Source: Myxococcales bacterium
Lineage (GTDB): Bacteria; Myxococcota_A; Polyangia; Polyangiales; Polyangiaceae
Length of the DNA: 54,529 bases
Direction of reading: 5' to 3'
Assembly: GCA_947473045.1 (NCBI GenBank)
Contig: CANJCO010000033.1
Coordinates: 1-54,529 of the forward strand
Numbering within the stretch: the first letter of the stretch is position 1; every line of letters starts with the position of its first letter. Made by a program: the position numbers and the translations under genes. The notes under the pieces are model-generated. The model was not told the DNA's origin. It saw nothing but the letters and a program-made list of their open reading frames with translations, and made no database searches. Below, in pieces: positions 9,227-23,550 of this stretch.

Positions 9227-9258
9227 TCCGGCGTGACGAGGGCCCGCGCGAAGTGCGC

Positions 9259-9264
9259 TAGCAT
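9259..9264 (+). promoter_or_regulatory. Predicted -10 box (TAGCAT) before the MopE-like gene
   Basis: TAGCAT overlaps the first two bases of ATG 9263 and lies 7 bases before the in-frame GTG 9272. This makes GTG 9272 the likelier start if the transcript is leaderless. Confidence 0.4.
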
Positions 9265-9271
9265 GACCTCC

Positions 9272-11389
9272 GTGACACGCACGCTCGTAGCCCTTTCGCT
9301 CGTCCTCGCGGCCGCATGCAGTGAGCCGCAGCGCGATCTTCAGTACCGCCCGTTCGACGCCGGCGCGGACGCAGACGCGGCGGCCAATGGCGGCGCCGAC
9401 GGCGGCGATGGCGAGCTCGGGAAGTCGTGCAAAGACGACAAGCAGTGCGACGACGGCATCGCGTGCACGTTCGACTCGTGCGACGCCAGGCTCGAGCGCT
9501 GCCGCAACCACGCAGACGACACGCTGTGCGACGACGGGGTGTACTGCAACGGCCGTGAGCTGTGTTTTCAAAAGACGGGCTGCGCGCAGGGCGCGGTCGT
9601 GACCTGCGACGAGGGATCGGGCGCGTGCCTCATCAACCGCTGCATCGAGGCGACGAAATCGTGCGAGCACGATCCCCGAGACGTTGATCAAGACGGCGAT
9701 CCCGACGATCACTGCGCCGGCGGTCACGACTGCAATGAGCAGGATCCAGCGATAAATAGCCTACATTCAGAAGTGTGCGGCAACGGTCGCGACGACAACT
9801 GCAACGGCGTCGTCGACGAGAAGCCCTGCGCCGCGGCCGACAGCGCGACGTGCGCGACGGCGAAGAAGATCACCGCAGCCGGCAACTACGCGCTAACGGC
9901 CGTAGGCGCCCCAAAATCGTTTCAAACGACATGTTCGGTGCCCAGCCCGCAGGCCGCGCACGACGTGGTCGCGCAGGTGACGGTGCCGCCAGGCCCCAAC
10001 GTCGACCTCGACCTGTGGGTGTCGAGCGGCGGCGTAGGCGCCGTGTCGGTGGCGATTCAGGCCGCGTGCGGACAGAGCGTCAGCGAGCTCGCCTGCGGCG
10101 CGGGCGCCGGCGCCACAGAGACGAGAGCGAGGGCGCGCAACCTGACGCCCGGCGACTACTGGGTCATCGTGACCGCGGCCAACGAGACTGCGCTGACGCT
10201 GGGCGTCGACTTCCTGTCGCCTACGCCAAAGCCGACGAACGAAGACTGCGCGGCCCCCGAGTCAATTTCGCCCGGCGTGCCGACCAAGGTGTCGCTCATC
10301 GACGCCGCGAAGGACCTCCCGAGCGACTGCGGCGTCGGCACCGGCGAGCTTACGTATGCACTTACGGTGACGCAGACGTCCGACGTGCGGGTGTACGCCT
10401 CGACGCTGCGGGGCAGCGGATCGCCGCTGATCGGGCTGCGCGCCCCGGCATGCGCGGGGCAGAACGACGAGCTGCACTGCCACGCCGGCAGCGCCCTGCC
10501 GGTGTTCGCGCGCGCGCTCGCGCCGGCGACGTACGTGATCACTGTAGCGGCCACGACGCCGATCGACGCGAGCGTGCTCGTGCAGCTTTCGCCGCCGACC
10601 GTGGCCCCCGCCGACCAGACTTGCCAGACCGCGCCGCCGCTGACGATCGGCAAGACGCTGACGTTCGACCTGTCGAATCACGAAGACGCGATCAAGGACG
10701 GGTGCCTGCCCGGCGGGCCGACAGCCGCCTACGCGCTCGACCTCGTCGATCCGAGCGACGTGATCGTGGTCGGGCGATTTCCGCAGAGCGACACCGGCGC
10801 GGTCTCGCTCGACGCTCCCGCGTGCGGCGTCAGCGATCAACTCATGTGCGGCAGCAGCTCGACGCCGGTGCGAACGGCGAGACGAAATGTGGCCCCGGGC
10901 AGCTACAGGGCGGTGGTGGCCGACACGCTCGGACAGCAGGGAACCCTCGGCGTCTTCGCGCGCCCGACCGTGGCCGCGACGCTCGTGTTCGGCGCCCACG
11001 ACTGCTCGACGCCCACGACGATTTCACAGGGCGGCGGCTTCTACACCGGCGACACGTCGCTGCTGACGGGCACCTACGACGAGAGCTGCGACTCGAGCGG
11101 ACAGCCCAAGGGCGGCGCGCCCGATCAGGTATTTCGGCTCGACCTGAGCAAGCCATCGCACGTGATTTTGTCGATGCAGGGGTCGGTGTATTCTACAATA
11201 TTGAGCGTCCGTCAGGGCTCGAGTTGCCCAGGCATCGAGCTCAAAAATGGCTGCACTGCGGGCTTTGCGGGCCCGCGAAGCTTTCTCGACTTCGCCCAGC
11301 TCGGCGCCGGCACGTACTGGGTCTTCGTCGACGGCTATGCGGGCAGCAAGGGCGTCTACGATCTCGACGTCTACGTCAGCGATCCGTAA
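9272..11389 (+). CDS. MopE-like secreted lipoprotein with Cys-rich and beta-domain repeats
   Basis: A lipoprotein signal (LSLVLAAACS) is followed by an Asp/Ala linker and two Cys-rich modules with the pattern C-x-DG-x-x-C (QCDDGIACTFDSC, LCDDGVYCNG). Next comes the MopE-type putative metal-binding motif (DVDQDGDPDDHC ... GNGRDDNCNGVVDE). The remaining ~500 residues contain four or more similar beta-sandwich repeats of about 130 residues, each with an N-E-x-x-D-C or D-x-x-C opening and an R-x-x-x-PG-x-Y-x-V strand pair (LTPGDYWVIV, LAPATYVITV, VAPGSYRAVV, LGAGTYWVFV). These look like pre-peptidase C-terminal-type domains. The likely site is the outer surface. The role is unknown; metal binding is inferred. 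GTG 9272 is chosen over ATG 9263 on promoter grounds. Confidence 0.82.
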   Translation: MTRTLVALSLVLAAACSEPQRDLQYRPFDAGADADAAANGGADGGDGELGKSCKDDKQCDDGIACTFDSCDARLERCRNHADDTLCDDGVYCNGRELCFQKTGCAQGAVVTCDEGSGACLINRCIEATKSCEHDPRDVDQDGDPDDHCAGGHDCNEQDPAINSLHSEVCGNGRDDNCNGVVDEKPCAAADSATCATAKKITAAGNYALTAVGAPKSFQTTCSVPSPQAAHDVVAQVTVPPGPNVDLDLWVSSGGVGAVSVAIQAACGQSVSELACGAGAGATETRARARNLTPGDYWVIVTAANETALTLGVDFLSPTPKPTNEDCAAPESISPGVPTKVSLIDAAKDLPSDCGVGTGELTYALTVTQTSDVRVYASTLRGSGSPLIGLRAPACAGQNDELHCHAGSALPVFARALAPATYVITVAATTPIDASVLVQLSPPTVAPADQTCQTAPPLTIGKTLTFDLSNHEDAIKDGCLPGGPTAAYALDLVDPSDVIVVGRFPQSDTGAVSLDAPACGVSDQLMCGSSSTPVRTARRNVAPGSYRAVVADTLGQQGTLGVFARPTVAATLVFGAHDCSTPTTISQGGGFYTGDTSLLTGTYDESCDSSGQPKGGAPDQVFRLDLSKPSHVILSMQGSVYSTILSVRQGSSCPGIELKNGCTAGFAGPRSFLDFAQLGAGTYWVFVDGYAGSKGVYDLDVYVSDP
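9917..9929 (+). repeat. 13-bp semi-palindrome TCGTTTCAAACGA
   Basis: This is a perfect copy of the recurrent AT-rich 13-mer. It lies inside the MopE-like gene in frame as TCG TTT CAA ACG, using codons that are unusual for this GC-rich sequence. The reverse complement of the same word is at 16042. Confidence 0.6.
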
Positions 11390-12008: not shown

Positions 12009-13724
12009 ATGCGCATCACCCACCGCGTTGGCCTCGCCCACGCCGCCGCTCACTTGATCGACGTCGAGACGCGCCTGCATTCCGCCGAGCCCCTCCCCTC
12101 GCCGCTCGAGCCGTTCATGGCCGTGTGGACGCCGGGTTCGTACATGGTGCGCGAGTACGCGCGGCACATCGAATCGCTGCGTTGCGAAGGCGGCCGCATC
12201 GTCGCCATCTCGAAGAACGCGTGGCGCATCGAGCACGACGGCGCCCGCGAAATCACGCTGCGGTACCGGCTTTACTGCAACGAGCTGACCGTCCGAAGCA
12301 ATCACGTCGACGCCTCGCACGCCTACCTCAACGGTGCCGCAACGTTTCTCGGCGTGCGCGGGCACCTCGGCGCCCCCGTCGAGGTCACGCTCGACGCGCC
12401 GGCCGGCTGGAGGGCGGCCACTGCGCTGGCGCGCGTCGCCGGGAGCAACAACGTGCGTACTGCACGCAATTACGACGAGCTGGTCGACTCTCCCATCGAG
12501 CTCGGGGAGCACGACGAGTTTGCCTTCGTTGCCGCCGGAAAGCCCCACAAGTACGCGATTTGGCCAGCGCGCGCCCTGTCGCCCGACAACATCGAGCGCC
12601 TCGTGAGCAGCACGCGCACGCTCATCGAGGTCGAGGCCAAGCTGATGGGAGGCCTCCCGCACGACGGCTTTACGTTCATCTTGCACCTGTCGACCCGCGC
12701 TCGCGGCGGCCTGGAGCACAGAGACAGCACCTCGCTGCTCGTGCCGCCGAGCGCGCCGCACACCCGTGAGGCGTGGCTCGACTGCCTGTCGCTCATCGCG
12801 CACGAGTATTTTCACCTGTGGAACGTCAAGCGCCTGCGCCCAGAAGGCCTGACGCCGGACCGGTACGAAGCCGAGAGCTACACGCGCATGCTCTGGTGGT
12901 TCGAGGGCGGCACGAGCTATTTCGACTGGCGCTTCCTTCGGCTCGCGGGGCTGTGCTCCGAGGCAGAATACCTGGCGCACATGGGCACCGAAATCGCCTA
13001 CGTCGAGCAGACGCCGGGCCGGCTGGTGCACTCGCTCGAAGACGCCTCGTTCGACGCCTGGATCAAGCTGTATCGGCCCGACGAAAACAGCGTCAATTCA
13101 TCGATCAGCTACTACTTCAAGGGCGAGCTCGTGTGCGCGATGCTCGACCTGGAGATCCGCGCGCGCTCCGGCGGACGAAGCAGCCTCGACGCGGTGATGG
13201 TCGCGCTGTGGGAGCAGTTCGGGCGTGACGAGAGACCGATCCCCGAAGGCGCGATGCAAGGGCTGTTCGAGTCGATCACGGGCTGCGCGCTCGGCGACCT
13301 GTTCGACGCGTGGATCCGCGGCACTTCCGAGCTCGACTGCGACGCCACCTTCGCGAAGGCCGGCCTGTCGATCGAGCGCACAAAGCGAGGGACGGTCTCT
13401 GTCGGCGCGCGGCTCGTTCTAAGCGGAGGTCGCGTCACGGTCGCCTCCGTGGCGCGAGGCGGAGGCGCTCATGCCGCGGGAATCGATCCCCACGACGAGG
13501 TGCTCAGCGTCGCCGGTCGCCGCGTCGACGGGACGGCCGTCGAAGCGCTGCTCGCGGACTTTTTGCCGGGCCAGCGCGTCGACGTGATCATCTCCCGCGA
13601 CGGCCGAACGCGATCGCTCGAGCTGACGCTCGGCGAGGCGCGCGTCGACAAAGTTACGCTGTCTCCGAGCGCGAACGCTACCCGTGAGCAAACCGCGCTG
13701 CGCGAGGCGTGGCTCGCGCTGTAA
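12009..13724 (+). CDS. M61-family glycyl aminopeptidase-like metalloprotease with PDZ domain
   Basis: This 571-residue protein matches the M61 architecture. It has an N-terminal beta domain (PFMAVWTPGSYMVREYARHI), a zinc catalytic domain with LIAHEYFHLWNVKRL (zinc ligands His265 and His269, catalytic Glu266) and the downstream ligand Glu299 in WWFEGGTSYFDW, and a C-terminal PDZ domain (about 460-545; ARGGGAHAAGIDPHDEVLSV). Family members remove N-terminal residues, often Gly or Ala. There is no signal peptide, so it is probably cytoplasmic. It converges on the ACP gene with 6 bases between. The identification is firm; the substrate is unknown. Confidence 0.93.
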   Translation: MRITHRVGLAHAAAHLIDVETRLHSAEPLPSPLEPFMAVWTPGSYMVREYARHIESLRCEGGRIVAISKNAWRIEHDGAREITLRYRLYCNELTVRSNHVDASHAYLNGAATFLGVRGHLGAPVEVTLDAPAGWRAATALARVAGSNNVRTARNYDELVDSPIELGEHDEFAFVAAGKPHKYAIWPARALSPDNIERLVSSTRTLIEVEAKLMGGLPHDGFTFILHLSTRARGGLEHRDSTSLLVPPSAPHTREAWLDCLSLIAHEYFHLWNVKRLRPEGLTPDRYEAESYTRMLWWFEGGTSYFDWRFLRLAGLCSEAEYLAHMGTEIAYVEQTPGRLVHSLEDASFDAWIKLYRPDENSVNSSISYYFKGELVCAMLDLEIRARSGGRSSLDAVMVALWEQFGRDERPIPEGAMQGLFESITGCALGDLFDAWIRGTSELDCDATFAKAGLSIERTKRGTVSVGARLVLSGGRVTVASVARGGGAHAAGIDPHDEVLSVAGRRVDGTAVEALLADFLPGQRVDVIISRDGRTRSLELTLGEARVDKVTLSPSANATREQTALREAWLAL

Positions 13725-13730
13725 CCGCGC

Positions 13731-13973
13731 TCAGGCAGCCTTTTCGGCGAGCTTGCCCTTTACGAGATCGTAGCTCTTCGTGAGCGTGGAGATCTCCTGA
13801 AGCTCGGAGTCCTCGATCTTGATTTTGTACTGACGCTCGATGGCGGCGACGATTTCTACGCCCATCATGGAGTCGATGCCGAGGTCCTTGAAGTGGCTGT
13901 CATCGGGCACTTCGGCGATTTCGGCGATTTCAGCGATGAGAGCGCGAAGCTCCTCTTTCAGCTCGTTCGACAT
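13731..13973 (-). CDS. Acyl carrier protein 1 of the lipid locus
   Basis: This 80-residue acyl carrier protein carries the phosphopantetheine attachment motif LGIDSMMGVE. Its helix order and acidity are normal (KIEDSELQEISTLTKSYDL). It is the last gene of the operon FAAL-ACP2-ACP1, 14 bases after ACP2, with a purine-rich site (GGAGAAG) ahead of ATG 13973. The Ser is followed by Met rather than Leu, which is less usual. It probably carries acyl chains loaded by the adjacent FAAL or elongated by the divergent ketosynthases. Confidence 0.92.
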   Translation of the reverse strand: MSNELKEELRALIAEIAEIAEVPDDSHFKDLGIDSMMGVEIVAAIERQYKIKIEDSELQEISTLTKSYDLVKGKLAEKAA

Positions 13974-13987
13974 TTGCTTCTCCGATG

Positions 13988-14239
13988 TCAGCCGAGGGCT
14001 TGGCGCTTCTCGACCAGCTCGAGAAGGTCTTTGACCGTCTGGATCCCGGCGAGCGACTCGTCGGGGATCTGCACCTTGAGTTCGCGCTCCATCGCGCCGA
14101 CGATTTCGAGCATGCCGAGCGAATCGATGCCCAGCTCGCTGATGACCGTCGCCTCCGTGATGGACTTGAACTCTTTCTCGGCGATCTCGGCGGCGGTCTT
14201 GTGAAACATCGATAGAAGCTCTGCGCGACTCAAGGCCAT
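13988..14239 (-). CDS. Acyl carrier protein 2 of the lipid locus
   Basis: The ORF could extend upstream, but the ATG at 14239 has a strong ribosome site (GGAGAAG) and gives an 83-residue carrier protein with the motif LGIDSLGMLEIV. The N-terminus MALSRAELLSMFHKTAAEIA is a good first helix. It differs clearly from ACP1, so two carriers are encoded side by side, perhaps one for starter loading and one for elongation or transfer to the oxoamine synthase. A 154-base gap separates it from the FAAL stop. Confidence 0.92.
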   Translation of the reverse strand: MALSRAELLSMFHKTAAEIAEKEFKSITEATVISELGIDSLGMLEIVGAMERELKVQIPDESLAGIQTVKDLLELVEKRQALG

Positions 14240-14351
14240 GTTCTTCTCCACCGGAGCGTGCGAAGCGCGCAAAAAATGGACACGCGGTCGCCGCCGAAAA
14301 GGTTGCGGTCGTCTACCTGAATCGGACGAAAATTTCAACCACGCAGGACGT

Positions 14352-14364
14352 TCTTTTCAAGAGA
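14352..14364 (+). repeat. 13-bp motif TCTTTTCAAGAGA between FAAL and ACP2
   Basis: This is the only clear non-coding copy of the recurrent 13-mer. The identical word on the other strand is at 2519, inside the kinase gene. Confidence 0.5.
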
Positions 14365-14392
14365 CCCCGCGAGGCGCGAAGTCCGCGGCGAA

Positions 14393-16195
14393 TCAGGTCG
14401 CTTCGGGCTCGCCCGCTGCGGCTGACCTCGGCCGCGGAAGCGTCCCGTCGAGAAACATCTGGCGGGTCTTGCGGCGCTGGGGCTTGCCGCTCGAAGTCCG
14501 CGGCAGCGCGCCCTGCGGGACGATCTCGACCCGGTAGACCGAGAGGCCGATTTGAGCCGCGACCGCCTGCTGAATCTGCTCGGTGATGCCCGCGGCCTCG
14601 CTCTGGAAGGCCTCGGCGCAGACGACGAGCTGCTCTTCGCCGGTTCCGTCTTCAACATGGCGTCCGGCGGCGTCGACCGTGACGCCGAACGCGACCACGT
14701 TGCCGCGGCGCACCCCCGGCAGCTCGCTCACCACCCACTCGATGTCGCTCGGGTAGAAGTTACGACCCCGGATGATGATGATGTCCTTGAGGCGACCGCA
14801 AATGTAAAGTTGTCCCCCCGCGAAGTAACCCAGGTCTCCCGTGAAGAGCCAGGTGCGCCCGTCTTCGCGGCGCCTGAAAGCCGCCTCGGAGAGCTCGGGC
14901 TCGTTGTAGTAGCCCTGACAAATCGAGGGGCCGGTGGTGGTGATTTGACCGACCTGACGCTCGCCGAGGCGGTTGCCCTGCTCATCGACGATGGCCACGT
15001 CGTGGCCCGGAAACCCGGCGCCGCAGCCGACGAGCTCCTGCGCGAGCTCGGAAGAATCGCCCGACGCGTTCTTTTCAAGCGAAGAAGACAGGGCTTCGCC
15101 GCGCGTGAGGCTGCCGGCGTCGACCACGTCCGTGACGAAGCCCGATCCATGCTGCACGAAGGTGGTGGCGAGGGTGGCCTCGGCCATGCCGTACGACGGC
15201 AGAAAGCTCTTCGGGTCGAAGCCCGCGGGCGCGAGCTTGTCCGCGAAATCACGCAGGGTGCGCGCCTGAATGGGCTCGGCGCCGCAGCCCGTGACCCGCA
15301 TGCACGACAGGTCGAGGCCCGAGAGATCTTTGTCCTTCAGGCGCTTGGCGACCAGCGCGTACGCGAAGTTCGGCGCATAGGTGATCGTGCCGCGGTGTTT
15401 GTGGATCGTATCGAGCCAGATGCGCGGGCTGCGCACGAAGCTCGCCGTAGGCAGAAACACAACGGGAATGTCGGTGAACAGGGGACCGATCACGAAGCCG
15501 ATGAGGCCCATGTCGTGAAAGAGCGGCAGCCACGAAACGCCCTTGTCGATGCTCGAATCCTTACCGAGGCCGTGAATCATGAAGGCCTCGCTGTTGTGCG
15601 AGAGGTTGCCGTGCGTGACCACGACCCCCTTGGGGCGCGAGGTCGATCCGCTGGTGAACTGAAGAAAGCACACGTCGTGCTCCGAGACCTCCACGACGGG
15701 CGCCTGCGGGGCCGGCCCGGTGAGCGCATCGATGGTGAGCAAAGCCTCGACGCTCGGCGTGCGGGGCAGCACGGGCTCGACGTACGGGCGCGTCGCCTCG
15801 GTCGTGACGAGCAGCTTGGCCCCCGATGCGCTCGTGATGTGGGCAACGGTGTCGTGATAGGTGTCGACGTTCTTGAACGACAGCTGCGGGTACATCGGAA
15901 CCGGCACGGCTCCTGCGAAGATGGCGCCGAGGAACGTGAGCACGAACTCGTCGGGCTCGGGGATCACCAGCGCGACGCGATCGCCCTTGCTCACGCCGCG
16001 CGCGGACAAGTGCGCAGCGCGCCGCGTGGCCTCCTCGAAAATCGTTTGAAACGAACAAAAGCGCTCGCCTCCGTCCGCGCGAATGAAGGTGAAGCCGCGG
16101 CCCGCGTCGTGCGCGAGCGCGCGCACGGCCTGCACGAGGGTCGGAGCGACGAGGCGGCCAGGCTGACGAACAGGGCTGAGAGCAGGAAGGGCCAT
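14393..16195 (-). CDS. Fatty acyl-AMP ligase (FAAL)
   Basis: This 600-residue ANL-superfamily enzyme has the P-loop-like FTSGSTSRPKGVVVTH, the segment SWLPLFHDMGLIGFV, the motif PSYGMAEATLAT, the TGDLGY core and GRLKDIIIIRGRNFYPSDIE. The phrases SWLPLFHDMGLIG and RNFYPSDIE are typical of FAALs, which activate free fatty acids as acyl-adenylates and pass them to an ACP rather than to CoA. Two ACP genes follow on the same strand. The C-terminal catalytic Lys region (PRTSSGKPQRRKTR) is present. Divergent ketosynthase genes start 142 bases away, so the pair probably shares a control region. Two 13-bp motif copies lie inside (15070, 16042). Confidence 0.93.
   Translation of the reverse strand: MALPALSPVRQPGRLVAPTLVQAVRALAHDAGRGFTFIRADGGERFCSFQTIFEEATRRAAHLSARGVSKGDRVALVIPEPDEFVLTFLGAIFAGAVPVPMYPQLSFKNVDTYHDTVAHITSASGAKLLVTTEATRPYVEPVLPRTPSVEALLTIDALTGPAPQAPVVEVSEHDVCFLQFTSGSTSRPKGVVVTHGNLSHNSEAFMIHGLGKDSSIDKGVSWLPLFHDMGLIGFVIGPLFTDIPVVFLPTASFVRSPRIWLDTIHKHRGTITYAPNFAYALVAKRLKDKDLSGLDLSCMRVTGCGAEPIQARTLRDFADKLAPAGFDPKSFLPSYGMAEATLATTFVQHGSGFVTDVVDAGSLTRGEALSSSLEKNASGDSSELAQELVGCGAGFPGHDVAIVDEQGNRLGERQVGQITTTGPSICQGYYNEPELSEAAFRRREDGRTWLFTGDLGYFAGGQLYICGRLKDIIIIRGRNFYPSDIEWVVSELPGVRRGNVVAFGVTVDAAGRHVEDGTGEEQLVVCAEAFQSEAAGITEQIQQAVAAQIGLSVYRVEIVPQGALPRTSSGKPQRRKTRQMFLDGTLPRPRSAAAGEPEAT
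16042..16054 (+). repeat. 13-bp semi-palindrome TCGTTTGAAACGA
   Basis: This is a perfect copy inside the FAAL gene. On the coding strand it reads TCG TTT CAA ACG, exactly as at 9917 in an unrelated lipoprotein gene. Confidence 0.6.
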
Positions 16196-16336
16196 GGGCG
16201 GCGTTTAGTCCTGCGATCGCCGGCCCGCAAGCGGTCGCGAAGGGCGCGGCGCCGGGCCCGCGCGTAGGCTTTTTCGCAGTAACGCCACGTCGCCGCCGCG
16301 TTGCGCAGCCGCGCGCATGGGCGGTATAAGCGCAAC
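16196..16336. promoter_or_regulatory. Divergent control region between the two lipid operons
   Basis: This 141-base gap separates the FAAL start from the ketosynthase start. TATAAG at 16325-16330 lies 6 bases before GTG 16337 and is the likely -10 box for the rightward operon. No clear operator repeat is visible. Confidence 0.4.
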
Positions 16337-17602
16337 GTGGCCAACAACGAGCGCGTCTTCATTACCGGCGTCGGGGTCGTCAGCTCCGTGGGGATGGGCC
16401 GCGCTGCGTTCTTCGACGCGATCCGCACCGGAAAAAACGGCATTTCGCCAGTAACTTCGTTCGACGCGACGCCGCTGGGACGCTCGTATGCGGGCGAGGT
16501 CAAAGACTTCCGAGCCGCCGATCACCTGACCGCCGCCGAGGCGCGCCGGATGGGGCGATGCTCCGCGATGTCGCTCGCCGCCGCGCGCATGGCCATCGTC
16601 GACTCGGGCATCGATGAAGCGCTGCTGAGAGGGCCCCGCACCGCGGTCGTCATCGGCACCACGATGGGCGAAGCCGACGTCATCGCCGACCTCGATCACG
16701 CCTGGATCGCCGGAGGCGCCGAGGCGGTGAGTCGCACGTTGCTGCCAAAATACGGCTCGACGCTGCTGCCGATTCACATCGCGCGCGCCTACGGGGTTCA
16801 AGGCATGACCATGACCCTGCCGGGCGCCTGCGCGGCGGGAAACTACGCGATCGGCCTCGGAGCCGACATCATCCGCGCCGGACGCGCCGACGTGGTGATC
16901 GCGGGCAGCGTCGAGCTGCTCCAGCAGCTCGAATTCAGCGGCTTCGTGAGGCTCGCCGCGATGGCCGTTTCGCGGTGCCAGCCGTTCGACCTCAACCGTC
17001 AGGGGCTGATCCTGGGCGAAGGCTCGGGCGTCGTGATTCTCGAGAGCGAGGCGCATGCGGTTCGGCGCCACGCCACCGCGCAGGCCGAGGTCGGCGGCTA
17101 CGGGCTCTCGTGCGACGCCTACCACATCACGAGGCCCCATCCGGAGGCGACCGGCAGCATCGCCGCGATGGCGGACGCCATTCGCCGATCAGGCCTCACG
17201 CCCGCCGACGTCGACTTCGTCAACGCGCACGGCACCGGCACCCGCGCCAACGATCAGGCCGAAGCGAAGGTGATGAACGAGATCTTCGGCTCCCGGCGCG
17301 TGCCGATTTCGAGCATGAAGAGCACCCTCGGCCACTGCATGGGAGCCGCCAGCGCAATCGAAGCCATCGGGTGCGTGATGACGATCGAAACCGGCATTTA
17401 TCCGCCCACGATGGGCTACGAGACGCCGGATCCCGAGTGCGATCTCAATGTGGTCGCCAACGCGCCGGCGACCGGTCCGCACGGGGTGTTGCTCAACAAC
17501 TCGCTGGCGTTTGGCGGTTACAACGCGGTGGCGTGCTTCGCCAAGCCCGGCGTGCTTCCGCATCCCCGCGAAGTGGCGGCTTCGCTCGGAGCGCGCTCGT
17601 GA
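16337..17602 (+). CDS. Beta-ketoacyl-ACP synthase (FabF-like), complete active site
   Basis: This 421-residue ketosynthase of the KAS II/FabF type condenses acyl groups with malonyl-ACP. The triad is intact: Cys165 in LPGACAAGNYA, His298 in VNAHGTGTRAND and His333 in KSTLGHCMGAAS (Lys328). GTG 16337 starts the conserved VFITGVGVVSS strand after an eight-residue leader; the longer in-frame start at 16301 would put extra basic residues in front. The stop overlaps the next gene's GTG (GTGA), as in KS/CLF pairs. It belongs to the operon with the CLF-like protein and the oxoamine synthase. Confidence 0.94.
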   Translation: MANNERVFITGVGVVSSVGMGRAAFFDAIRTGKNGISPVTSFDATPLGRSYAGEVKDFRAADHLTAAEARRMGRCSAMSLAAARMAIVDSGIDEALLRGPRTAVVIGTTMGEADVIADLDHAWIAGGAEAVSRTLLPKYGSTLLPIHIARAYGVQGMTMTLPGACAAGNYAIGLGADIIRAGRADVVIAGSVELLQQLEFSGFVRLAAMAVSRCQPFDLNRQGLILGEGSGVVILESEAHAVRRHATAQAEVGGYGLSCDAYHITRPHPEATGSIAAMADAIRRSGLTPADVDFVNAHGTGTRANDQAEAKVMNEIFGSRRVPISSMKSTLGHCMGAASAIEAIGCVMTIETGIYPPTMGYETPDPECDLNVVANAPATGPHGVLLNNSLAFGGYNAVACFAKPGVLPHPREVAASLGARS

Positions 17603-18762
17603 CGCCGCGCTCGATCACGGGCCTCGGCATCTGCTCAACGATCGGCACGGGCCGCGAGGCGTTTTTCCGCGCGCTCGCCGATGCACCTGCGCTCGCGGGC
17701 GCGGAGCTCAAGCCGGTGCTGTCGTTTGACGCCTCGAAATACAGCGAAGCCGCCGTCGCCGAGGTCGCCGATTTCGACCCCGCGCGGTGGCTTGGAGACA
17801 AGGGCCTGCGATCGCTCGATCGCCTCACCAAGCTGCTCGTCGTGGCGGCGCGCCTGTGCGCACACGACGCCGGGCTCAAGCGTGATGGCGCGTTCGTGGT
17901 GGGCTCACCGGAGCAGACCGGCCTCGTGTGCTCGAACGCGTACGGCAGCCTCGAGGCGATCACCGAGCTTGACCGGGTCGCCGTGCTCGAAGACGCGCGG
18001 TACATCAACCCCGCCAAATTTCCCAATACCGTGGCCAACAGCGCCAGCGGCTATGTGAGCATCTGGGAAGACCTTCGCGCGCTGAACGTGGCGATCAGCA
18101 ACGGCAACTGCGGGGCGCTCGACGCAGTCGCGTGCGCCGATATCTACATGGCGAGCCATCGCGCCGAGACCATCCTCGTCGGCGGCGCCGAGGCCCTGTC
18201 CGAAGCGCTTTTTCTGGCGTTTCAGCGCGTAGGGATGCTCGAGTCCGGCGCGCGCGTCGGCGAAGGCGCCGCCATTGTCGCGCTCGAAGACCGCGAGCGG
18301 GCCCGCGCTCGCGGCGCGCGCGTGTGGGCCGAAGTGGTGGGCTGCGGCGCAGCGTTCGATGCGGCCGAAGGCGAAGGCGCGGGCGTTTTTCACGCGTCGA
18401 AAGAAGCCATGGCGCGGGCGATTCACGAAGCGCTGGCCGACGCAGACGTCGCGGCGAGCGAAGTCGACCTCGTGATCAGCGGAGTGGCGGGGCTTCGGGC
18501 GTTCGACGCATTTGAGCTCGCCGGGATCGCCCGGGCGCTCGGCAAAGGCACGCCGGTGTGTGCGCCCAAGCGGCTGCTGGGCGAGACGTTCGGCGCCGGC
18601 GGCGCGATGGGCATGGCCGTCGCTGCAGCGTACCTCGGAGGCCTTCCTCCGCGCGAAATCGTTCAGGGCTTGCCACCGTCGCGCGTGGCCACAGTCGTCG
18701 TCACTGCGATGGGCTACTACGGAAATGCCTCTGCGGTGGTGATGCGCAAGTCTCCAGATTGA
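17599..18762 (+). CDS. CLF-like ketosynthase homologue lacking both active-site His
   Basis: This 387-residue thiolase-fold protein is translationally coupled to the ketosynthase. A Cys is kept (Cys171 in ISNGNCGALDA). The two His positions are lost: the NAHGTGT site reads VISGVAGLRAFD and the LGH site reads LGETFGAGGAMG. Loss of His with retention of the fold is typical of chain-length-factor subunits of type II polyketide and aryl-polyene systems, although those usually also lose the Cys. I infer a heterodimer with the upstream KAS that sets chain length. The start is the GTG overlapping the previous stop. Confidence 0.82.
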   Translation: MTPRSITGLGICSTIGTGREAFFRALADAPALAGAELKPVLSFDASKYSEAAVAEVADFDPARWLGDKGLRSLDRLTKLLVVAARLCAHDAGLKRDGAFVVGSPEQTGLVCSNAYGSLEAITELDRVAVLEDARYINPAKFPNTVANSASGYVSIWEDLRALNVAISNGNCGALDAVACADIYMASHRAETILVGGAEALSEALFLAFQRVGMLESGARVGEGAAIVALEDRERARARGARVWAEVVGCGAAFDAAEGEGAGVFHASKEAMARAIHEALADADVAASEVDLVISGVAGLRAFDAFELAGIARALGKGTPVCAPKRLLGETFGAGGAMGMAVAAAYLGGLPPREIVQGLPPSRVATVVVTAMGYYGNASAVVMRKSPD

Positions 18763-18780
18763 GGTAGACAGCGCCTCGAC

Positions 18781-20013
18781 ATGACGTTCATCGACGAAAA
18801 GGCGCACGCCGAGCTCGCCCGCATCCGTAAGGCCCGCGAAAAGCAGGTTTATCCGTACTTTCGCGAGTTCGAGACCGGCGGACTGCACACGACAATCGCG
18901 GGGCAGCCGATCGTCAATTTCAGCTCGAACGACTACCTCGGGCTCACCAACCACCCGAAGGTGAAAGAGGCCGCACACAAGGCGGTCGACAGCTACGCGT
19001 GCGGTCTGTCGAGCTCGCGCGTGCAGGCCACCACCGTCGACCACGTCGCCCTCGAAAACCGCCTCGCGCGCTGGTACGGCTTCGAAAAGTGCCTGCTGTT
19101 TACGACCGGCTACCAGGCCATGGTCGGTACGATCGCCGCGCTCGCTGACAAAGACACCACCCTGGTGCTCGACAGCTACAGCCACGCCTGCATCCTCGAC
19201 GGCACTTTCATGGCGGCCGGCGTTCCGGGGCGCGCGCCTGAAGTGCGGTTTTTCAATCACAACTCCGTCAAGAGCCTCGAGCGCATTCTCAAGACCCGCG
19301 AGCGCAAAAACGCCATCGTGCTCATCGAAGGCGTCTACTCACTCGACGGCGACAAAGCGCCCATCAAAGAGATGGTCGACATCTGCGCGGCGCACGGCGC
19401 CTACATCGTGCTCGACGACGCGCACGGCACCGGAACGCTCGGCATGAACGGGCGCGGCATTCTCGAAGAGGCCGCTGTCGAAGGGCGCGTGCCGGTCGTC
19501 ATCAGCACGTTCTCGAAGACCTTCGGCGGCATCGGCGGAATCCTCCTCGGTCGCGGAGAAGTTGTAGAATACATTCAACATACGGCCCGTTCGTTCTTGT
19601 TCTCGGCCAGCCTGCCGGTGCCGATCGTGGCGGCCGCGAGCACCATTCTCGACATGCTCGAAGACGAAGGCCCGAAGCTCGTGAGCGAGCTGCACGAAAA
19701 GGCCGAGTGGATGCGCTCGAACCTCAAAAGTGCGGGCTTCGACCTCGGCGCGTCGAACACGCACATCATGCCGGTCTACTGCCGCGATGAGCGCAAGGCG
19801 CTGTTCATGCACGTCGCGCTGCTCGAATCGGGCGTGCTCATGGTGCCCATCACCTACCCCGGCGTGAAGCTGGGCGAAGAGCGGCTGCGCCTCAACGTGA
19901 CCCGCGGTCACACGCAGCAGGACATGGACAAGGCGCTCGACCTGCTCAAGATGTACGGGGAGGCGTTCTTCGTGCTCAGCGGCGAAGATCTCGGCCCCCT
20001 CGAAGACGACTGA
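18781..20013 (+). CDS. Alpha-oxoamine synthase (SPT/BioF/KBL family)
   Basis: This PLP enzyme of 410 residues condenses an acyl thioester with an amino acid and releases CO2. Visible are His135 (SYSHACILDG, stacks on PLP), D212-D213-x-H215 (LDDAHGTG) and the Schiff-base Lys246 (STFSKTFGG). The C-terminal YPGVKLGEERLRLNVTRGHT is like that of serine palmitoyltransferases. The glycine-rich acyl-binding segment is unusual (YACGLSSSRVQATTVDH). Neighbouring FAAL, ACPs and ketosynthases point to an acyl-ACP substrate and a sphingolipid- or sulfonolipid-like 3-keto amino lipid, rather than biotin. Amino acid specificity cannot be read. TAGACA lies 10 bases before the ATG. Confidence 0.85.
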   Translation: MTFIDEKAHAELARIRKAREKQVYPYFREFETGGLHTTIAGQPIVNFSSNDYLGLTNHPKVKEAAHKAVDSYACGLSSSRVQATTVDHVALENRLARWYGFEKCLLFTTGYQAMVGTIAALADKDTTLVLDSYSHACILDGTFMAAGVPGRAPEVRFFNHNSVKSLERILKTRERKNAIVLIEGVYSLDGDKAPIKEMVDICAAHGAYIVLDDAHGTGTLGMNGRGILEEAAVEGRVPVVISTFSKTFGGIGGILLGRGEVVEYIQHTARSFLFSASLPVPIVAAASTILDMLEDEGPKLVSELHEKAEWMRSNLKSAGFDLGASNTHIMPVYCRDERKALFMHVALLESGVLMVPITYPGVKLGEERLRLNVTRGHTQQDMDKALDLLKMYGEAFFVLSGEDLGPLEDD

Positions 20014-20062
20014 GCCGCGCTTGCGGTAGACGCGCGCGCCACGTCGCGATATCTCCTGTGGC

Positions 20063-20341
20063 ATGACTCAGGACCAGCTCGACGCGATCTTCAAGACCTA
20101 CGGCGCCAAGTCCGGAGCAGACGGCTGGTTCGTTTTTCCCGAAGGCTCGGTCGTGTCGATTTACGTGGCGCGCGAGGGCGCGTCGGTCACGTTGGCGCGC
20201 GTCGACGGCGTGAAGTTCGAGGGCGACCTGCTCTTCGGGCGAACGGCAAAAAAAGAGCTGTATGCTGCACGCATTCCCGATGTCCTCGCGCTGTCGTTCG
20301 ACCCGGGTTCGAGCATGCCGTCCAGACGCGCGGGATTCTAA
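20063..20341 (+). CDS. Small protein of unknown function in the lipid locus
   Basis: This is a 92-residue soluble protein with beta-strand-like segments (GWFVFPEGSVVSIYVAREGA, GDLLFGRTAKKELYAARIP). No known domain is recognised and there is no signal peptide. TATCTC ends 7 bases before the ATG. It lies 49 bases after the oxoamine synthase and 3 bases before the acyltransferase gene, so it is probably co-expressed with the latter. The coding call is reasonable; the function is unknown. Confidence 0.6.
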   Translation: MTQDQLDAIFKTYGAKSGADGWFVFPEGSVVSIYVAREGASVTLARVDGVKFEGDLLFGRTAKKELYAARIPDVLALSFDPGSSMPSRRAGF

Positions 20342-20344
20342 GCC

Positions 20345-21232
20345 TTGCGCGTCGCGACGTCGGCCTTGCACTGGGCCGCGCGCGGCGTTGGCGCGCTGAG
20401 GTTCTCTGACCTCGGCGTTTGGGGGCGCGCGCTCGGGTGGGTCGTCGGAAGCGCGCTGGGCGTTCGCCGATCGCACGTCGTAGCGTCGATGCGGGCCGCG
20501 GGCATCCCCGAGCCCGAGGCCGCGGCATCCGCGATGTACGACGCGCTCGGCACCAGCGCGATCGAGCTGCTGTGGCTGGCAGCGCGCGATCGCGATCTGG
20601 CAGCGATCGCGCACATCGACGGGCCATCGACGCGCGCGATCGACGAGGCGAAGCGCGGTGGCCGCGGGCTGGTTTTCGCAGCCTCGCACACAGGCAACTG
20701 GGACCTCGCCGCGTGCGCCATCGCCAGCCATGTGCCGCTCATGGTGATCACCAAGCACCTGTCGATGCGCGGCATCGACGCGTTTTGGCAGGGCACGCGC
20801 GCGCGCTACGGGATCACGCTGGTCGGGGCCGCGGGGGCGCTGGCCAGGGCGCGAGCCCATTTGGCCGCAGGCGGCGCAGTGGCGATGATGATCGATCAGG
20901 TGCCCGATGCCGCGCATCACAGCGTGCGCGCGCCGTTTCTTGGCGGCGAAGCGCACGTCGATCGCGCCCCGTTCGCGCTCGCCGCGGCTTGTCGTGTGCC
21001 GCTGCTCGTTGCCGCGGCCCGACGCACCGAGCACGGTCAGGCCCTGCGCGTACTCACAGCGCTCACGCCACCGGCGGCTGCCGCGACTCGGTGGGCCCAC
21101 GGCGCGGCGCTCGAAGCCACCGCGGCGCTCGATGCGTTCGTGCGCGCGCACCCTAGCGAGTGGCTCTGGATGCACCGTCGCTGGCGCAGGCCTTCGGACT
21201 CACGCGCGGTGCGCAGGCCCGAGCGCCCTTAG
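20345..21232 (+). CDS. LpxL/HtrB-like lysophospholipid or lipid A acyltransferase
   Basis: This ~295-residue protein has the acyltransferase motif H-x4-D in ASHTGNWDLAAC, the later MMIDQVPDAAHHSVRAPFLGG and a C-terminal PSEWLWMHRRWRRP. All are typical of the LpxL/HtrB family that transfers an acyl chain from acyl-ACP to a lipid. The start is uncertain; a TTG at 20345 opens the frame. Placed after FAAL/ACP/KAS/oxoamine synthase, it may acylate the lipid made by the locus, but a housekeeping lipid A role is also possible. Confidence 0.85.
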   Translation: MRVATSALHWAARGVGALRFSDLGVWGRALGWVVGSALGVRRSHVVASMRAAGIPEPEAAASAMYDALGTSAIELLWLAARDRDLAAIAHIDGPSTRAIDEAKRGGRGLVFAASHTGNWDLAACAIASHVPLMVITKHLSMRGIDAFWQGTRARYGITLVGAAGALARARAHLAAGGAVAMMIDQVPDAAHHSVRAPFLGGEAHVDRAPFALAAACRVPLLVAAARRTEHGQALRVLTALTPPAAAATRWAHGAALEATAALDAFVRAHPSEWLWMHRRWRRPSDSRAVRRPERP

Positions 21233-21412
21233 CCGATAGCGCGTGCCGCAACGATCGCAGGCCGGCACCGCGCCCGGCTCGAGTTCGCATACGCACACAG
21301 ACTTGCAGTTTACACATATCCACGCAGCCGCATCTTCGTCGATGAGCGCCGTCGTCGACGGGGGGCACGGCCTTGTCGACGATTGCGCTTCGCGGGTCTC
21401 GCTCGTCATCAT
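21200..21412 (-). CDS. Small zinc-ribbon protein
   Basis: This 70-residue protein has two Cys pairs ([17 protein letters not shown], then [10 protein letters not shown]) of the zinc-ribbon type and an acidic/Thr-rich N-terminus. ATG 21412 is preceded by TACCTT with a 7-base spacer, matching the promoter pattern of the window and supporting a real gene. It overlaps the last 33 bases of the acyltransferase gene tail to tail. The role is unknown. Confidence 0.55.
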
Positions 21413-21419
21413 GGTGTCC

Positions 21420-21425
21420 AAGGTA
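21420..21425 (-). promoter_or_regulatory. Predicted -10 box (TACCTT) of the zinc-ribbon gene
   Basis: TACCTT ends 7 bases before ATG 21412, with no Shine-Dalgarno sequence between. Confidence 0.4.
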
Positions 21426-21550
21426 GCGAGCGCGCGCGTCGATTCGCGCACCGGAGAGCCACGACTTGGAGGCGAATCGATGGCGAGACCCCCGAGCGGG
21501 CGCGCGCCGTGACCGTTGCGGGTAGCGGCACGCGGGGGTATTCCGTCGGC

Positions 21551-22360
21551 ATGCACGATCCCATCGTCATCGCCGGACGCTCCTTCGAAAGCCGCCTCAT
21601 CGTCGGCACGGGCAAATATGCGAGCGTCGAGCAGACGGAGCTCGCGATCGACGCCTGTGAGGCCGAGATCGTCACCGTGGCCCTCAGGCGCGTCGACCTC
21701 AGCGATCGTTCGAGCGGCTCGCTGATGTCGCTGCTGACGCGGCGGGCGAACCTGGGAGACGGCGCGAAGGGCGAGTCGCGGCGCTGGACGATTCTGCCCA
21801 ACACCGCCGGCTGTTTCACGGCCGACGAAGCCGTGCGCACGCTTCGTTTGGCCCGCGAGCTGGGAATCGCAGACATGGTCAAGCTCGAGGTGATCGGCGA
21901 CAAGGACACCCTGTATCCCGACAACGAGCAGACGCTCGAGGCGGCAAAAATCCTCGTGAAGGAGGGCTTTACCGTGCTGCCCTACTGCATCGATGATCCG
22001 ATTGTGTGCCGCAAACTCGAGGACATCGGCTGCGCCGCGGTGATGCCGCTGGCCGCCCCGATCGGCTCCGGGCTGGGCATTCGCAACCCGCACAACCTGA
22101 GCATCATCATTGAACGCGCGAAGGTTCCGGTGATCGTCGACGCCGGCGTGGGCACGGCCAGCGACGCAGCGATCGCGCTGGAGCTCGGGTGCCACGCCGT
22201 GCTGATGAACACGGCGATCGCCCACGCGAGCGATCCGGTGCTGATGGCCCACGCGATGAAGCTCGGCGTTCGCGCAGGAAGAGCCGCGTTTGTCGCGGGG
22301 CGCATGCACAAGAGCCGCTACGCGAACGCGTCGAGCCCGACGAAGGGCCTCATCGAGTGA
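21551..22360 (+). CDS. thiG: Thiazole synthase
   Basis: ThiG makes the thiazole phosphate of thiamine from deoxyxylulose phosphate, ThiS-thiocarboxylate and dehydroglycine. The 269-residue product starts at the conserved [20 protein letters not shown] and keeps [56 protein letters not shown] and [13 protein letters not shown] 21551 is chosen because the family begins here and TATTCC ends 6 bases before it. No thiS or thiO gene and no TPP riboswitch is visible. The stop overlaps the next gene (GTGA). Confidence 0.96.
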
Positions 22361-22611
22361 CGCGCGCAGCTGTGGCGCTCGCGCTGGCGACGCTGACCGG
22401 CGCACCGATGCAGTGCGCGCATCCGCCCGAGGATTCCGTGCGAACCGAAGACAGCGCAGGGGACGCGCTGTGGGCGCTCGCGCAAGATTTTGAAGCGCAC
22501 GGCGAGCACGCAGCCGCTGTGCACACCCTCGATACACTCGCCCGGCGTTACCCCGCCAATCGCCACGCGCAGGCTGCGCGACTCGCGGCCGCGAGCGACG
22601 CCGGCCCGTGA
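22357..22611 (+). CDS. Small exported or helical protein between thiG and thiE
   Basis: This 84-residue protein starts at a GTG overlapping the thiG stop. It has a hydrophobic N-terminus ([14 protein letters not shown]) with a Cys soon after that could be a weak lipobox, then a TPR-like helix pair ([38 protein letters not shown]). It is not ThiS: it lacks the terminal Gly-Gly and the ubiquitin-like pattern. Function is unknown. Confidence 0.5.
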
Positions 22612-22627
22612 TGCGGCGCGGGGCCGC

Positions 22628-23257
22628 GTGACGCCGAGGCTGGTGCTGATCACCGACGCTGCGTTTGGCGACGACCTGCTCGCGCGCGTCGCTCGCGCGG
22701 TTTGTGGGGCAGTTCCCGGGGCGTGCGTGCAATTGCGCGATCGCGTTCGCAGTGACGACGCGCTGCTGCCGCTCGCGATGCGCTTGCGCGAGATCACGCG
22801 CGCCCACCGCGCGATGCTGATCGTCAATCGACGCCCCGCGCTGGCCGGAGCGTGCGGAGCCGATGGCGTTCACGTGAGCGCCGCGGACGTCGAAGAGACG
22901 CGCGCCGCGCTCGGGCCTCACGCGTACATCAGCGCGCCTGCGCACGACGCGGGCGAGCTCGAACGCGCGCGCCGAGGCGGCGCCGATTTCGCGCTGGTGA
23001 GCCCGATTTTCGCCTCACCCGGCAAAGGCCCGGGTCGCGGCACCGTCGCGCTACGACAAGCCCGAATGCTGTCGGGGTCGCACATGGGGATCGTGGCGCT
23101 CGGAGGGATCGACGCGTCGAATGCGGCGGAGTGCTTCGAAGCCGGCGCGCTCGGCGTCGCGGCGGTTCGAGCGCTGCTCTGCGCGGGCGACGCGGGCGAA
23201 ACTGCGGCGCGAATGGTCAGCGCATGCGGCGTTTGCTATGAGCCAGCTTCCCGATGA
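22628..23257 (+). CDS. thiE: Thiamine-phosphate synthase family protein
   Basis: ThiE joins the thiazole and pyrimidine halves of thiamine. The 209-residue product from GTG 22628 shows LVLITDAAF, CVQLRDRVRSDDALL, MLIVNRRPALAGACGADGVH, the phosphate-binding ALVSPIFASPGKGPGRG and GIVALGGIDASNAAE. The catalytic-loop spacing resembles ThiE, but short members of the TenI branch look similar and cannot be excluded. Its stop overlaps the ATG of an ACP gene (ATGA), an unusual coupling. Confidence 0.85.
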   Translation: MTPRLVLITDAAFGDDLLARVARAVCGAVPGACVQLRDRVRSDDALLPLAMRLREITRAHRAMLIVNRRPALAGACGADGVHVSAADVEETRAALGPHAYISAPAHDAGELERARRGGADFALVSPIFASPGKGPGRGTVALRQARMLSGSHMGIVALGGIDASNAAECFEAGALGVAAVRALLCAGDAGETAARMVSACGVCYEPASR

Positions 23258-23550
23258 CGCATGAAGAGTCTCTGAAGGTGACACTCGAGGTGCTCGCGCG
23301 GCACTTCGACCCGCCGCGCGAAATCGCTGCGACGCACGAGATTCAGGCCGATTTGGGCCTCGACAGCCTCGCGGTCATGGAGATCATCGCCGACATCGAA
23401 GACGCCGCCGGCGTGCATGTGCCGATGGAAGCGCTCGAAAGCATTGTGACCGTTGGCGACGTCGCGGCGGCGTTGGTACGATTGACGGAGGGCGCCCCAC
23501 CGAAGTATGCCGGAGGCCTGCGAGCCGCCAATCATGGTAAACTTGTCTGA
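23254..23550 (+). CDS. Acyl carrier protein 3
   Basis: This 98-residue carrier has the site LGLDSLAVMEIIADIED and a C-terminal extension (PPKYAGGLRAANHGKLV) beyond the usual ACP end. It is translationally coupled to thiE (ATGA overlap). It lies 2-10 kb from the two ACPs of the FAAL operon and may serve the same lipid pathway or an unrelated one. There is no phosphopantetheinyl transferase in the window. Confidence 0.9.
   Translation: MTHEESLKVTLEVLARHFDPPREIAATHEIQADLGLDSLAVMEIIADIEDAAGVHVPMEALESIVTVGDVAAALVRLTEGAPPKYAGGLRAANHGKLV

Follow-up and report, generated by a model that had tools for sequence, protein, structure and literature searches.

An alpha-oxoamine synthase encoded with two acyl carrier proteins and a ketosynthase pair as a probable replacement for serine palmitoyltransferase in Polyangiales

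What does an alpha-oxoamine synthase (AOS) make when it is encoded beside a fatty acyl-AMP ligase (FAAL), two acyl carrier proteins (ACPs), a ketosynthase (KAS) and a partner that resembles a chain length factor (CLF)? This question is raised by a locus in a stretch of DNA of 54,529 nucleotides (contig CANJCO010000033.1 of assembly GCA_947473045.1, hereafter the window) from a Myxococcales bacterium of the family Polyangiaceae. The window makes up contig C33 of a genome of 5.15 Mb that is 99.98% complete; the closest relatives with names are metagenome-assembled genomes (MAGs) of Labilithrix/Polyangiaceae and Sandaracinaceae. We conclude, with a probability of roughly 0.6, that ceramide-type sphingolipid synthesis in Polyangiales starts with this AOS, which replaces the canonical serine palmitoyltransferase (SPT), and that its acyl chain is delivered on an ACP from the FAAL and/or the KAS/CLF pair.

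A preliminary description of the locus listed a FAAL and two ACPs divergent from KAS, CLF and AOS, followed by a small protein and an LpxL-like acyltransferase, and all eight genes are present where it placed them. The first six form the core. On the minus strand are ACP1 (13731..13973; PF00550, E 6.9e-15), ACP2 (13988..14239, with the ATG at 14239 picked as the start by eye; PF00550, E 5.8e-11) and a FAAL of the PRK09192 type (14393..16195; 496 bits against NF006624, which is under the cut-off of 600). On the plus strand are a catalytically complete FabF-type KAS (16337..17602, start GTG at 16337), its CLF-like partner (17584..18762, exact start uncertain) and the AOS, the proposed SPT equivalent (18781..20013).

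The relationship of this AOS to canonical SPT is seen at the level of whole genomes. In a comparison set of 116 Polyangiales genomes the window-type AOS is found in 80, the canonical myxobacterial SPT in 28, neither in eight, and the two never occur in the same genome. The sets span about 40 and 15 genera, respectively. Family membership does not by itself determine which type is present, since family f1 includes both. Where Polyangiaceae genomes have no window-type AOS (loci L058-L060 and L063), the canonical SPT adjoins or is close to the gene encoding the ceramide N-acyltransferase bCerS. The two enzymes would have the same role in the same order, each with bCerS, but they are only 35-36% identical and belong to different clades.

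The bCerS family accompanies both, as it was found in 72/80 genomes with the window-type AOS and in 27/28 with the canonical SPT. The family was assigned by context and was set beside proteins from Rubrobacter, Aureispira and E. coli rather than Caulobacter bCerS: in Rubrobacter the query is encoded between an AOS and a reductase, its counterpart in Aureispira shares 33% identity with it, and it matches yghO of E. coli, a gene flanking the aasR-cerR-acpR-spt operon of BL21. A homolog is present in the window genome on another contig (C102), as is the best candidate for the reductase CerR (C2, 32%). In one genome (G193) bCerS lies divergently beside the window-type AOS, another AOS genome (G018) has a bCerS-CerR pair, and in the genus g13 a CerR-like short-chain dehydrogenase/reductase (SDR) is found near ACP1 and the AOS.

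The locus itself is conserved across the order. Orthologs of the AOS that are 65-79% identical occur in dozens of genomes, so that the layout is not due to chance. In a sample of 189 genomes from the phylum such orthologs, there 66-77% identical, fell within Polyangiales, and the remaining phylum was below 40% identity among the matches listed. A scan of 84,980 species returned 80 loci. Almost all of them bear titles of Myxococcota or Deltaproteobacteria MAGs and a few just that of Proteobacteria or uncultured bacterium, and named Sandaracinus contigs carry the window-type AOS as well. In most loci the order is ACP1<-ACP2<-FAAL<- ->KAS->CLF->AOS. The preliminary description had proposed gene order in relatives as a check, and the synteny found across Polyangiales is strong; the absence of synteny that would have spoken against it did not occur.

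The exceptions to this order demonstrate that the locus consists of two modules, ACP1-ACP2-(FAAL)/KAS-CLF and the AOS, which can be unlinked. In the first variant, the genus g13 (~16 genomes), only ACP1<- ->AOS is kept, and a CLF was not found anywhere in those genomes. In the second, seen in family f50 and in some members of f4, the AOS is on a different contig from the ACP1-ACP2-(FAAL)/KAS-CLF module, which is intact. The modules nevertheless travel together, as a CLF was detected in 64/116 Polyangiales genomes and 63 of these 64 also have the window-type AOS, even when it is unlinked; in the sole exception (G198), a genome that is 82% complete, just 404 bases separate the CLF from the end of its contig. 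ACP2 is usually found together with FAAL, KAS and CLF. ACP1 accompanies the AOS in genomes without KAS/CLF and accompanies KAS/CLF where the AOS is unlinked, and as the element common to both variants it is the ACP that would hand the chain to the AOS. A 4HBT-type thioesterase adjoins ACP1 in three locus-bearing genomes (L036 2643-3071, L039 17390-17821 and L047 14893-15309); the family was assigned by sequence cluster, with Pfam run on the L036 copy.

The two ketosynthase-like proteins have the features of a type II KS-CLF pair, in which adjacent genes encode a ketosynthase that retains the catalytic residues and a partner that has lost them. Among the 60 orthologs of each that were inspected, the Cys, two His and Lys of KAS are kept in all, and the Cys and both His are gone from CLF in all. 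The best solved match for both proteins is PDB 9S5H (chains B/C), for which our literature search found no publication. Like that pair and Iga11/Iga12 (6KXD), the window pair joins an active KS to a partner without catalytic residues, but it comes without recognised genes for a ketoreductase (KR) or dehydratase (DH), and the genes linked to it encode an AOS and two ACPs. The preliminary description had already pointed out that a ketoreductase and dehydratase are missing from the locus, and neither the locus nor its conserved surroundings in the loci inspected contained a recognisable KR, DH or enoyl reductase (ER). The variable flanking genes that were typed by Pfam are ordinary neighbours (class I tRNA synthetase, bestrophin, PGM, a kinase and an M16 peptidase), with no ketoreductase for KAS/CLF among them. 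The simplest inference is that the housekeeping enzymes FabG, FabZ and FabI are recruited.

The FAAL is probably an acyl-ACP synthetase like AasR, judging from its sequence: it is 34% identical to E. coli BL21 AasR and its gene adjoins those of ACP2 and ACP1, so that it is both an AasR homolog and linked to a dedicated ACP. It is also 39% identical to a Roseomonas FAAL beside an SDR, and the assignment is limited by the numerous FAAL paralogs and by the many AOS loci without a linked FAAL.

The residues of the AOS fit a role as an SPT. The pyridoxal phosphate (PLP) lysine K246, the stacking residue H135, D212 and H215 of the PLP site and the carboxylate-binding R370 are invariant in 23 orthologs, although these residues are common to all AOSs and are therefore not discriminating for SPT. 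More indicative is the combination of TFSK around the PLP lysine with Ala276 at the position of Lys281 in SulA, the cysteate acyl-ACP transferase. The same pair is present in the SPTs aligned, and the other enzymes in the comparison have TFGK/Thr (BioF), TLGK/Asn (KBL) and TLAK/Thr (ALAS). A Streptomyces AOS associated with a polyketide synthase (PKS) nearly matches the motif (TLSK, Ala), so TFSK/Ala is indicative only. The AlphaFold2 model of the AOS (pLDDT 84.5) has its closest fold in the SPT 3a2b (Z 49.0, rmsd 1.8 over 387 residues), with the next family at 47.5 and the SulA structure 7u7h at 42.9, but as the fold is common to all AOSs this comparison cannot settle function. Sequence and fold alone do not decide what the AOS does.

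In a maximum-likelihood tree, which the preliminary description had called for, the window AOS and its orthologs form a separate clade (100/99), and the sister group is a pair from two genomes (G216 and G267) with 44% identity. The deep placement relative to SPT and BioF is weak. Several points weigh against the proposed role. The tree puts the AOS outside the known SPT clade and weakly near BioF/HemA (83/77), and approximately unbiased (AU) tests reject neither a union with SPT (p 0.343) nor one with BioF (p 0.17). An arginine in the motif VTRGHT, Arg375, is nearly invariant in the window AOS clade and is missing from all AOSs outside it in the alignment, the 44% sister group among them; such a clade-specific residue may indicate that the substrate differs, and it could mark either the substrate or ACP binding. 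The AOS also falls under all three NCBIfam SPT equivalog cut-offs (NF047599, 289/500 bits; NF047600, 309/640; NF047603, 233/670), though the bCerS-linked myxobacterial SPT fails them as well, and these models are therefore lineage-bound. The exclusion of canonical SPT reflects few evolutionary switches and its Fisher p (5e-20) is inflated as a result. Eight AOS genomes are without a clear bCerS, one of which (G057) is 99% complete, and in the window genome the bCerS and CerR candidates lie away from the locus, with one stop codon in the stretch that matched bCerS.

If the AOS does replace SPT, the pathway would begin with the FAAL, acting like AasR, or with a housekeeping synthase, either of which could supply acyl-ACP. 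The dedicated KAS/CLF heterodimer would extend the chain on ACP2/ACP1, and FabG, FabZ and FabI would supply the reductions during this elongation, so that the chain would be fully reduced. The AOS would then condense the chain, most likely carried by ACP1, with an amino acid, for which serine is the most likely candidate, and the resulting 3-oxo long-chain base would be N-acylated by bCerS and reduced by a CerR-type reductase. Since g13 keeps the AOS without KAS/CLF, the pair would have an accessory role in setting the chain and would not be needed for the chemistry itself.

The alternative that survives best is that the AOS takes another amino acid, such as alanine or glycine, and makes 1-deoxy- or other aminolipids that are still N-acylated by bCerS. 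The separate clade with its own Arg375 is in keeping with this, and a study of the Black Sea reported 1-deoxyceramides and suggested that other amino acids may be used by Spt homologs (PMC11334938). It is nevertheless unlikely, as TFSK/Ala276 is shared with the serine-using SPTs and the AOS stands in for canonical SPT across 80 genomes.

The lack of reductive genes raises a second alternative, in which the beta-ketoacyl-ACP from KAS/CLF stays unreduced and its condensation with an amino acid by the AOS gives an amino-diketone that cyclises to a lipid of the 2-alkyl-3-hydroxypyrrole type. PigH carries out pyrrole-forming chemistry of this kind in prodigiosin synthesis. That CLF is found just with the window-type AOS is consistent with such a route, but in the ~16 g13 genomes the AOS works without a beta-ketoacyl supply, and the accessory status of KAS/CLF weighs against it, as do the co-occurrence of bCerS and the exclusion of canonical SPT. 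We regard this route as improbable.

Sulfonolipid (capnine) synthesis from cysteate, with the AOS as a relative of SulA, was the other product class that the preliminary description had considered. SulA has the same AOS fold and its acyl-ACP donor is established (PMC9304779), but SulA comes from another phylum, the Lys281 that defines it is Ala in all 23 orthologs and its structure is a poorer match to the AOS model than SPT. The sphingolipid half of that suggestion is retained, on the SPT-like residues, the exclusion and bCerS, and the sulfonolipid half is very improbable. Least credible of all is that the AOS is the BioF of biotin synthesis: the top NCBIfam score is for bioF (TIGR00858, 319 bits against a cut-off of 426, with the SPT models next) and the tree leans weakly that way, but the motif is not that of BioF, the only two other AOSs of the genome are a KBL (over the TIGR01822 cut-off) and a separate BioF-type enzyme (C1), and none of the loci inspected has a recognisable biotin gene next to the AOS, so that the clustering with BioF beside biotin genes that the preliminary description had named as counterevidence did not occur.

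Several characterized systems resemble parts of the proposed pathway. In Rhodobacterial systems a dedicated AcpR and AasR are established and acyl-AcpR is the preferred SPT donor (PMC9386255). The idea of an ACP-bound donor for the window AOS is supported, though it is not new in itself, since Rhodobacterial SPTs and SulA already prefer or use acyl-ACP (PMC9386255, PMC9304779). The AasR-AcpR-SPT module of Caulobacter and E. coli BL21 likewise combines a dedicated ACP, an acyl-ACP synthetase (annotated as FAAL in BL21) and an AOS, with the ceramide N-acyltransferase encoded in a different unit (PMC9386255). It differs in having no KAS/CLF, one ACP and CerR inside the cluster, and its AOS belongs to a different clade and is about 28-33% identical to that of the window. 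In Pseudomonas fluorescens MYb115 the PKS of SgaAB feeds the AOS SgaB, which has SPT activity (PMC12134224). Here too a condensing enzyme feeds an AOS and sphingolipids arise without a canonical SPT, the window product being the predicted one; by its description, however, SgaAB is an iterative type I PKS rather than a type II KAS/CLF with free ACPs, and it belongs to a secondary metabolite cluster rather than being an order-wide trait. AOS matches from Burkholderia and Cupriavidus were considered as SgaB relatives and rejected, as they are of the KBL type by motif and no condensing enzyme matched beside them. One of the eight Polyangiales genomes with neither AOS type (G230) has bCerS and CerR and encodes an AOS of a third type (TFSK, FSCAL), next to a KAS that is only 26% identical to that of the window (contig C308; L236 3038-6098), possibly a second independent KAS-AOS pairing.

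The two genes downstream of the AOS do not belong to the pathway. The small protein of 92 aa (20063..20341, plus strand; no Pfam match) and the LpxL-like acyltransferase (20345..21232, plus strand; PF03279, E 3.4e-22) were rejected on synteny, as they begin a separate small-LpxL-ThiG-ThiE-ACP3 unit (20063-23550) that is kept in Labilithrix-type relatives, where it is inverted relative to the AOS, and is absent beside the AOS in Sandaracinaceae-type genomes. The preliminary description had cast the LpxL-like protein as the N- or O-acyltransferase; that assignment is abandoned, with the bCerS homolog found elsewhere in the genome. Thiamin genes thus share a unit with an LpxL-like acyltransferase and a third ACP. 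On the other side of the locus, a MopE copper-binding motif (PF11617) is present in a large protein encoded at 9233-11389, upstream of an M61 peptidase (12009-13724).

Three features are new as far as the literature was searched, namely the AOS clade itself, the mutual exclusion between it and canonical SPT, and the coupling of the AOS to a type II KAS/CLF; the search found no papers on KS/CLF plus AOS or on FAAL plus AOS. Their significance may lie in the outer membrane, as it is thought that sphingolipids replace lipopolysaccharide (LPS) in some bacteria (PMC11324152). LpxC was found in 28/116 Polyangiales genomes and not found in the other 88, so that most of these diderms seem to be without LPS, which suggests that LPS loss is the rule in the order. 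Among the 80 genomes with the window-type AOS, LpxC was found in 10, including the window genome; the remaining 70 yielded neither LpxC nor canonical SPT, and bCerS is present in most of them. Because MAGs are incomplete, a single absence carries limited weight, but the trend is not affected. It is possible, though we hold this only tentatively, that the locus represents an order-wide, non-canonical entry to sphingolipids, in which the AOS clade displaced SPT and, with chains from a dedicated KAS/CLF-ACP machine, supplies long or unusual bases to the outer membrane of mostly LpxC-less myxobacteria.

The gene set is kept across a large order of soil and marine myxobacteria, most of which seem to lack LPS. 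If the AOS is an SPT equivalent, the gap left by apparently LPS-less genomes without canonical SPT would be closed, and a fatty-acid-type KAS/CLF would be coupled to long-chain-base synthesis. An unrecognised clade would also be added to surveys of bacterial sphingolipid makers. The Black Sea survey took membership in an SPT-like clade as its sign of sphingolipid capacity (PMC11334938), and surveys that score just the SPT clade could count such bacteria as sphingolipid-free.

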